A stretch of DNA of 64,000 nucleotides from Pantoea nemavictus. GTDB lineage: Bacteria > Pseudomonadota > Gammaproteobacteria > Enterobacterales > Enterobacteriaceae. Positions 19,921 to 38,880 of this stretch are shown piece after piece (the stretch's first letter is position 1; each line of letters starts with the position of its first letter). Made by a program: the position numbers and the translations under genes. The stretch spans positions 3,472,001-3,536,000 of the forward strand of contig NZ_JBBGZW010000001.1 of NCBI RefSeq assembly GCF_037479095.1, written 5' to 3'. Under the pieces are notes generated by a model, which was not told the origin of the DNA, searched no databases, and saw only the letters and a program-made list of their open reading frames with translations.

Positions 19921-19998
19921 GTAGCGGCGCGATTAATCGCGCTTTTCAATGGCGGTAATGTGCCCATCCAGATAATGCGCAATAAATTGCGCCGCTAC
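19921..19998. repeat. 78-bp paired-hairpin repeat, family B copy 1
   Basis: Begins GTAGCGGCGCGATTAATCGC and ends in the complementary arm TTGCGCCGCTAC. Each arm has an internal A/T-centred palindrome (GCGATTAATCGC; GCGCAATAAATTGCGC). Same length as copies at 32600 and 38803. It lies between ybiB and the convergent amidohydrolase. Confidence 0.9.
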
Positions 19999-32599: not shown

Positions 32600-32675
32600 G
32601 TAGCGGCGCGATTTATCGCGCGTATTAATGGCGGCATTATGCCCATCCAGAAATGGCGCAATAAATTGCGCCGCT
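32600..32675. repeat. 78-bp paired-hairpin repeat, family B copy 2, split by IS110
   Basis: Starts GTAGCGGCGCGATTTATCGC and stops at TTGCGCCGCT. The missing last two bases AC lie at 33885-33886 on the other side of the IS110 element, which restores exactly 78 bp. Confidence 0.9.
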
Positions 32676-32688
32676 TGTATCTTGAATG

Positions 32689-32857
32689 TGTTGCTGGTTA
32701 GCTACCAGCAACATGAAACGGAGGCAGCTTTTTGCGCCGCTTAAGACCCGATCTTGCTTCGTAGCTTTAAGCCCTCCGTTTCTCCTTTCACGCCAGCAAC
32801 TACTCTGAACGGTAACCAGAAGCTCTGACTTCGTATGTACAAGGCTAGATGGCGTGA
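32689..32857 (+). ncRNA. Predicted bridge RNA of the IS110-family element
   Basis: Three stems in order: TGTTGCTGGT/ACCAGCAACA (32689-32698 with 32704-32713); GAAACGGAGG/CCTCCGTTTC (32715-32724 with 32773-32782); TCACGCCA/TGGCGTGA (32788-32795 with 32850-32857). The loop of the second stem contains TTGCGCCGCT (32732-32741), identical to the left target at 32666-32675, and TCGTAG (32759-32764), complement of the right target CTACGA (33883-33888). The loop of the third contains ACGGTA (32809-32814), as in the right IS end (33876-33881), and TACAAG (32838-32843), complement of the left junction CTTGTA (32674-32679). This is the target-loop/donor-loop plan known for IS621. Confidence 0.8.
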
Positions 32858-32883
32858 TGGTTTAAGTGAAAGGGAGATATCCG

Positions 32884-33867
32884 ATGTTCTGTCTTGGTAT
32901 TGATGTCAGCAAAAACAAACTCGACCTCTGCCTGTTCCCCGGCAACGGCAAAAAGAAAACGAAATCCATCAAAAATCAGGTCGGCGTAGAACGTGACATC
33001 TGCGACTGGCTCCAGAAGCAGAAGTGCCCGCCAGAGCAGGTGATGGTGGTGATGGAAGCGACCAGCGTCTATCACGAAAACGTCGCTTACGGGCTGCACG
33101 GGAACACGCCCGTGACGGTCTGTATCGGCAATCCGCAACGGGTCAGGGAGTTTGCCCGCGGAATGGGTATCCTGACCAAAAATGACGCGGTCGACGCCTG
33201 GGTGCTGGCCCGTTACGGCGAGCTGAAACAGCCCGATGCCTGGGTTCCGCCGCCACCGGAAGTCCGCAAGCTGAAAGACCTGCTGCGTCTGCGTGACGCC
33301 ATCGTTGAAGATGTGCAGCGCGCGACGAACAGGCTCGAGAAGGCGAACTCAACCCAGACGGCGGGCGAGGTGACCGACTCGCTTGAAAGAACAAAAAAAT
33401 CGCATGAAAAGGAGCTGAAGCGAATAAACGCGCTGATTGACGACCACATGGATAAGAATGATGGTCTGAAAGATGATCTTAAGCTGCTGGAGTCGATAAA
33501 AGGTATCGGCGGCGTAGTGGGAACGACCATGCTGTCGGTGCTGCGTACGTGCCAGTTCCGCAATGCGGGTCAGGTAGCGGCGTGGCTGGGCGTGGTGCCG
33601 GTCGAGAAGACGTCAGGCAGTTCGGTGAGAGGGCTGGCCCGGATGTCGAAAACCGGTCCCGCCGACGTGAGAGCGAAGCTGTATATGGCCGCGATAGTAG
33701 CGGCAAGGTGGAATCGCCCCGTAAGAGCGCTGTATGAAAGGCTGATGGCGAAGGGCAAGCCAGCCAAAGTGGCGCTGGGAGCGGTGATGCGCAAACTGGT
33801 CCATCTCTGCTTCGGTGTGCTTAAAACACGAGAGCCGTGGAACGAAAACTACGTAGCTACCGCTTGA
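32884..33867 (+). CDS. IS110-family DEDD recombinase (transposase), intact
   Basis: 327 residues from the ATG at 32884 (GGGAG upstream); a GTG six codons earlier is less likely. RuvC-like N-terminal domain starting GIDVSKNKLDL, the glutamate in VMEATSVYHE and the aspartates in TKNDAVDAWVLARY. Coiled linker around residues 150-190. C-terminal Tnp domain with IKGIGGVVGTTML, AAWLGVVP and the catalytic serine region SGSSVRGL. It would catalyse RNA-guided recombination at the CT core. The stop codon lies inside the right-end inverted repeat. Confidence 0.92.
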   Translation: MFCLGIDVSKNKLDLCLFPGNGKKKTKSIKNQVGVERDICDWLQKQKCPPEQVMVVMEATSVYHENVAYGLHGNTPVTVCIGNPQRVREFARGMGILTKNDAVDAWVLARYGELKQPDAWVPPPPEVRKLKDLLRLRDAIVEDVQRATNRLEKANSTQTAGEVTDSLERTKKSHEKELKRINALIDDHMDKNDGLKDDLKLLESIKGIGGVVGTTMLSVLRTCQFRNAGQVAAWLGVVPVEKTSGSSVRGLARMSKTGPADVRAKLYMAAIVAARWNRPVRALYERLMAKGKPAKVALGAVMRKLVHLCFGVLKTREPWNENYVATA

Positions 33868-33987
33868 CGTTCAAGACGGTAGCTACGATTCATTACTCTG
33901 CACCACCACTATGCACATCCTGCCCCCATACGGTGCAGCATTGATCGCGCTGCGTGACAATCCCCCTGATTCTGCAGCTTTGCCATT

Positions 33988-38802: not shown

Positions 38803-38880
38803 GTAGCGGCACGATTTATCGCGCCTATTAATGGCAGCGCCGTGCCCATCCACACATTGCGCAATAAATTGCGCCGCTAC
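38803..38880. repeat. 78-bp paired-hairpin repeat, family B copy 3
   Basis: GTAGCGGCACGATTTATCGC to TTGCGCCGCTAC, followed by GA, so it still contains the complete uninterrupted target TTGCGCCGCTACGA predicted for the IS110 bridge RNA. It separates the convergent lyase-like and flavin reductase genes. Confidence 0.9.

Follow-up and report, generated by a model that had tools for sequence, protein, structure and literature searches.

The window analysed here, the whole stretch of 64,000 nucleotides, carries on its forward strand a 1,207-bp IS110-family element at positions 32676-33882, counted without its core and flanked on both sides by CT dinucleotides (left core at 32674-32675; right core at 33883-33884, followed by the AC of the target). 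A preliminary description had set the start at the same base, but its end at 33884 takes in the right CT core. The element encodes a 327-aa recombinase (32884-33867) with two Pfam domains, DEDD_Tnp_IS110 (PF01548; 76.6 bits, cut-off 29) and Transposase_20 (PF02371; 81.6 bits, cut-off 21.3), and with the IS621 and ISCro4 recombinases as relatives in the PDB. Residues D7, E58, D101, D104 and S244-G245 are invariant in nine aligned sequences, and the DEDD residues and the Ser-Gly pair align to those of IS621. Both domains and the catalytic residues thus being present, the protein is assigned by sequence comparison to the IS110 family and, within it, to the IS110 group. As is typical of that group, the longer noncoding stretch lies upstream (208 bp left of the recombinase ATG versus 15 bp right of the stop codon) and long terminal inverted repeats are absent. 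Assignment to the IS1111 group was considered and rejected: that group has a long downstream noncoding region and a subterminal inverted repeat (sTIR) of usually 11-13 bp with 7/3-bp extensions (PMC11187229), whereas here the noncoding region is upstream and the sTIR measures 7 bp with 4/6-bp extensions. A hairpin, GTAGCTACCG...CGGTAGCTAC, spans the right end (33853-33886), its last four nucleotides being target.

The element's own genome (G000) holds ten full-length copies, 99-100% identical and with identical ends. All ten share one insertion point, which reads (T/G)TGCGCCG-CT on the left and CT-AC on the right, that is, T or G followed by TGCGCCGCT, the element, and then CTAC. The left target, located in the window at 32666-32675, is TTGCGCCGCT in nine copies and GTGCGCCGCT in the tenth, an exception that fits a guided insertion because its first letter falls outside the nine positions read by the left guide of IS621 (PMC11208158). 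The right target, CTAC (33883-33886), present in 10/10 copies, is complementary to the GTAG tag carried by the repeat described below. A genome of the same species, G028, retains the empty site of the window copy with a single CT, 206/208 identical to the joined flanks with one gap, and yielded no recombinase match at E 1e-40; G024 likewise has an empty site at this locus. Insertion is exact at the CT core, a trait of the IS110 group. The preliminary description had stated that excision restores a repeat of exactly 78 bp, and removal of the element on one CT core indeed leaves 78 bp, but the empty repeat of G028 is 79 bp long because of one extra base. No relative of the element was found in the viral collection, and a first scan of genome contigs with the single protein as query confirmed none. 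In plasmids and Escherichia coli genomes, no single place spanning 80% of the element turned up in any record; the matches listed were 65-67% identical over about half of it, and in 13 plasmid records the best place was 80-90% identical. The element is named in no title or abstract of the literature searched, although this is no proof that nothing is in print.

Other IS110 elements share this genome. Four copies of a second family (L046, L048, L223 and L224, at G000:C1:1567280-1568203, 3260013-3260936, 3427901-3428824 and 1715-2638), with 35-36% protein identity, all lie at a different palindromic repeat, GGTCGCC..AATGGCGACC-CT, and have a leader that carries GGCGACCC. A further relative, L225 (C1:377025-377954), has another leader. 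A near-identical copy of the right-end hairpin stands alone at L019 (G000:C1:3108330-3108362), with no other part of the element present; GCACA and TGTGC flank it, as they do some REP-like repeats.

The repeat occupied in the window (left 76 bp at 32600-32675, last 2 bp, AC, at 33885-33886) is an inverted pair of GTAG-tagged 22-nt palindromes with the unit GTAG plus CGGCGCGATTTATCGCGC; overlapping or spaced inverted pairs of such palindromes were read at nine other places. Its arms fall into two types, and exact 12-mer counts of intact C-type arms (TCGCGCCGCTAC) and T-type arms (TTGCGCCGCTAC) stand at 103:105 in G000, 307:34 in G012 and 549:47 in G031, the latter two being congeners, so that the ratio depends strongly on species. 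GTAG-type REPs have been described as high-copy palindromes of 20-40 bp with GTAG at one end (PMC3733652), a description that the repeat, judged by its sequence, fits. Among enterobacteria, the GTAG-3 families of that description occur only within the Escherichia-Klebsiella cluster (PMC3733652), so the Pantoea repeat may form a separate REP family. The companion RAYT transposase (PF01797), considered as a source of the repeats, was detected in none of four genomes (G000, G012, G031 and G125, the last from another genus of the same family), with 5/14 control genomes positive, and was set aside; RAYT/REP units may be lost by deletion (PMC3733652). The Pantoea genomes G000, G012 and G031 therefore present a high-copy GTAG palindrome family with no detectable RAYT.

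Upstream of the recombinase gene lies a leader with the predicted architecture of a bridge RNA. Positions 32676-32866 fold at -64.7 kcal/mol, compared with -49.65 +/- 4.58 kcal/mol in 200 shuffles (z -3.29), into what had been described beforehand and is borne out here: a 5' hairpin (32689-32713) and two stem-bounded loops, one target-binding (32715-32782, stem GAAACGGAGG / CCTCCGTTTC) and one donor-binding (32788-32857, stem TCACGCCA / TGGCGTGA), the former supported by folds and by stem pairs changed on both sides. The target loop contains the putative left guide TTGCGCCGCT at 32732-32741 (9-nt core at 32733-32741), which repeats, as previously noted, the ten bases of the flank that begin at 32666, and the putative right guide GTAG at 32761-32764. 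Directly after the latter, a CT (32765-32766) can pair with the donor AG at 33881-33882 in the manner of the handshake guide described for IS621 (PMC11208158). The donor loop contains a left guide, ACGGTA (32809-32814), matching the donor ACGGTA at 33876-33881, and a right guide, ATGTACAAG (32835-32843), for the donor CTTGTAT at 32674-32680, laid out as in IS621 (PMC11208158); both donor motifs of the preliminary description, ACGGTA and TACAAG (at 32838), were recovered at these places. When the leader was dinucleotide-shuffled 20,000 times, the 10-mer turned up in 24 of the shuffles and the 9-mer in 55, and none held the 9-mer together with GTAG and both donor motifs; chance therefore does not explain the four guide matches.

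The right guide had been given earlier as TCGTAG, a hexamer that is present at 32759-32764 but whose last two bases, as a guide, were over-read: the bases that follow CTAC are GA in 3/10 copies, GG in 4/10 and AG in 3/10, so that seven copies mismatch. Preference for a full CTACGA right target was accordingly rejected, GA also following CTAC in 21/105 intact T-type sites of G000 (P ~0.32), and the outer two bases make no visible difference. This bears on where the element could land. Two unoccupied 78-bp repeats in the window had been singled out, one at 38803-38880 with the whole target, which does contain TTGCGCCGCTAC, and one at 19921-19998 with one mismatch; the latter is likewise 78 bp long and contains the full TTGCGCCGCTAC, and its mismatch lies at a position also mismatched in 7/10 real insertions. 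Since these last two bases are not needed, more than 100 further sites qualify, and the earlier set of two was far too small for a genome with 105 intact TTGCGCCGCTAC sites.

Comparison of 13 aligned leaders gave a consensus of 35 predicted pairs, 10 of which have changed on both sides with pairing kept, and some of which are broken in 2/13 sequences. Across this alignment it is the target loop that varies, the donor loop being conserved, a pattern also reported for IS110 relatives of IS621 (PMC11208160). The 5' hairpin was not drawn by RNAalifold from alignment A2, in which loop lengths are unequal; single folds of the first 50 nt form it in 18/18 leaders, several of them copies, with 4/18 weaker than -10 kcal/mol. 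Rfam offered no family, a SNORA56 hit at 23.2 bits against a cut-off of 80 being rejected as chance. The left end is thus predicted to encode a bridge RNA with target loop, donor loop and four guides, as is characteristic of the IS110 group.

Joining of the two ends may create a promoter. A -35-like TTGACG (33864-33869, forward strand) overlaps the recombinase stop codon at the right end, and a -10-like TATCTT, a consensus match only, lies at the left end (32678-32683, forward strand); only in the joined ends do they form a sigma-70-like TTGACG-17-TATCTT with a 17-nt spacer and 9/12 consensus bases; shuffles of the 1,351-bp region average 0.5 such matches. The integrated left end has no comparable promoter match; transcription of the RNA is therefore expected chiefly from the excised circle, as has been described for IS621 (PMC11208160, PMC11208158).

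Evidence that the guides are in use comes from relatives whose guides differ. In the congeners G031 and G012 the left guide is TCGCGCCGCT, one letter off (C for T at position 1), and the correspondingly different arm of the repeat is occupied in all 19 of their copies: 18/18 in G031, found by their leaders, have TCGCGCCGCT as the left flank, as does the single copy in G012. The right flank is CTAC in the 13/13 G031 copies (of 18) that could be read by script and in G012. Across the three congeners the left target equals the element's own 9-nt left guide in 29/29 copies (10 in G000, 18 in G031, 1 in G012). Were arms chosen at random, zero C-type insertions in G000 would have P ~0.001 for ten copies and 0.002 for the nine with TT; the 18/18 insertions of G031 into its commoner arm would have P 0.23, and the three genomes combined give 0.0002, so the arm-choice signal rests mainly on G000 and G031 alone proves little. 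The proteins are about 80% alike (79% identity in G012; in G031, where the C-terminal part was seen, 82-84% over that part). G031 contains at least 18 sister-element copies; in two of them (L031 and L033) stretches of N occur within the gene, and of such copies protein searches saw the C-terminal part only. The G012 element L021 (G012:C3:609075-613055) has about 200 bp extra in its right end, with the right-end motif at 1411 instead of 1201, and the extra stretch carries several palindromic repeats, one of the 78-bp type. The preliminary description had named as decisive against RNA guidance the occurrence of the same loops at unrelated targets; no such case was found in the three congeners. 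Further afield, three copies of a relative in G125 (64% protein identity) lie at TATCCACCCT and have the guide TATCCACCCT; the 12-mer TATCCACCCTAC occurs 97 times in G125 and not once in G000, G012 or G031, which suggests that the guide tracks the repeat native to its host.

The same correspondence was sought more widely. A fixed rule located the element start in 23/80 named loci and not in the other 57, two of the 23 repeating G048 and G038; with one fixed left-end rule and leader window, 39 elements yielded 27 distinct leaders, 12 having been dropped as leader-window duplicates. L083 (orientation and truncation unclear) and L025, L028, L046 and L048 (distant or of another family) were left out of these tests. 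Scored against their own left targets, the 27 leaders sum to 221, compared with a permutation mean of 130 and maximum of 169, and 0/100,000 permutations reach 221; a smaller set of 13 leaders gave 108 for self against 54 for non-self pairs (0/100,000). These counts are not strict probabilities because the elements are related and some are nearly identical (G401/G340; G210/L143/L154). In 20/27 leaders no other target scores above the own left target, and the remaining 7 fit another element's target better; the worst own-target fits are L148, L158 and L176, and the poorly matching sites L144 and L162 are among the rows dropped as leader duplicates. The left-guide match ends before the core in G401 and G340 and before the core T in G384 and G210, that of G210 also needing a 1-nt gap. 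For the right end, 20 rows were used, namely the rows that had a right end, with repeated leaders removed and G031 added. The right guide, taken at its best-matching position and so leaning towards a match, agrees with the right target in 4/4 bases in 19/20 leaders and in 3/4 in one. The next base, taken as the handshake letter, can pair in 20/20 leaders with donor position 7, which is G, A or T, 19 by Watson-Crick pairs and one by wobble, a result that 0/100,000 shuffles reach. In the present element no pair forms between the donor loop's handshake base and target position 7, G standing opposite G.

Such natural covariation between guide and target supports the mechanism that we consider by far the most probable, at roughly 93%: the leader of this IS110 element would be a bridge RNA that guides insertion by the recombinase into the CT core of a GTAG-tagged repeat. 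The leader would be transcribed as the bridge RNA, its target loop base-pairing with the GTAG-tagged palindrome through the left guide TTGCGCCGCT and the right guide GTAG, and its donor loop with the element's own joined ends. By analogy with IS621, the element would form a circle whose candidate junction promoter (TTGACG-17-TATCTT) drives the RNA, recombinase and RNA would together bring about insertion of the circle into the CT core, and the DEDD residues with the serine would carry out strand exchange. The sequences themselves show the element's boundaries, its ten insertions at a single site, the empty site in a same-species genome and the four guide matches, as well as the conserved fold, in its predicted form, the guide-target covariation and the handshake-donor match. 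Targeting of a palindromic repeat by RNA, as first proposed, is upheld by the 29/29 congener copies and the covariation across 27 leaders; the phrase direct sequence evidence, used at that stage, holds as far as strong comparative evidence goes, but direct is too strong.

The best surviving alternative, though an improbable one, is that the recombinase alone reads the hairpin or the CTAC edge and that the guide matches in the leader are by-products. In its favour, every target in the three congeners is an arm of a single palindromic repeat and has, wherever it could be read, the CTAC edge in common. Yet between proteins about 80% alike the arm chosen changes with the leader, although CTAC closes both arm types and G000 has the two about equally often; and the fit of leaders to their own left targets lies beyond all permutations tried. 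Still less credence is due to the proposal that the leader is a structured 5' UTR that only regulates translation of the transposase, with a piece of the flanking repeat captured through gene conversion or an earlier mis-excision. In its favour, the leader has a predicted structure, and regulation by two small RNAs and by structure at the 5' end of the mRNA has been described for ISPpu9 (PMC8450116). Against it, relatives whose targets are quite different have the match at a similar position of the loop, the right guide and the handshake base match 4-5 bases ahead of the stem, and two donor guides match the element's own ends. The leader may regulate in addition to guiding. That the ten identical sites arose by homologous recombination or duplication of one occupied repeat is largely refuted and very improbable, for while the copies are 99-100% identical and repeat arms occur at more than 200 places, the flanks beyond the repeat differ in 10/10 copies, L012 and L017 have no second arm in the 90 left bases shown, and G028 has the exact empty site of the window copy.

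If the leader is indeed a bridge RNA, we infer that in this lineage right guides are locked on the tag and left guides follow the stem. It is tempting, if speculative and somewhat short of even odds, to regard these RNAs as host-tracking addresses, in which the right guide remains fixed on a GTAG tag that does not vary, the left guide changes, by as little as one letter, to follow whichever stem is abundant in the host, a one-base change moves the element between arm classes of the palindrome, and the repeats serve as harmless docking sites common to element and host. Relatives with the right targets CTCA or CTGA exist, so a right guide locked on the GTAG tag is not a rule for all. Bridge RNAs are recently described programmable recombination guides, and their natural retargeting and strictness merit testing; the present element is likely to exemplify in nature the programmable insertion that genome engineers are now developing. 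Two leaders whose left guides are one letter apart and near-equal target numbers in one genome provide a ready 2 x 2 test of single-base specificity, and the handshake covariation (three donor letters, 20/20 paired) adds natural support for the handshake step.

The bridge RNA of IS110 elements is already known, and this element is an ordinary member with unusually clean natural evidence of guide-target co-evolution, the most useful part of which is the switching of arms within one repeat family by a single guide letter. Its closest described counterpart for comparison of mechanism is IS621 of E. coli (PDB 8wt6-8wt9; Durrant et al. 2024, PMC11208160; Hiraizumi et al. 2024, PMC11208158), with which it shares a DEDD-plus-serine recombinase of similar length (phmmer 172 bits), a predicted left-end RNA with 5' hairpin, target loop and donor loop, the CT core, the right target CTAC (as given by the base labels in PMC11208158), a discontinuous right donor guide, a candidate junction promoter and insertion in palindromic repeats. 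It differs from IS621 in its left target, the stem of the Pantoea GTAG-tagged repeat as opposed to an E. coli REP, in its 7-bp subterminal inverted repeat TTCAAGA/TCTTGAA, and in that the target-loop handshake pairs with the donor whereas that of the donor loop is unpaired with the target. ISCro4 (PDB 9t56), compared by protein sequence only, is the best PDB match at 173 bits. ISPpu9, ISPpu10, ISPa11 and ISRm19 are likewise IS110-family elements inserted specifically into REPs of their hosts (PMC1525189); their hosts are others, the points of insertion in the REP are stated for ISPa11, ISPpu9 and ISPpu10, and the passages of that paper on these elements do not mention a guide RNA. The nearest parallel to the retargeting is that of ISEc11, the IS1111 representative in PMC11187229, and ISXne4, two related elements in which RNA and target have changed together; their targets share 3/13 bp, whereas here one left-guide letter separates the two arms of one repeat family.
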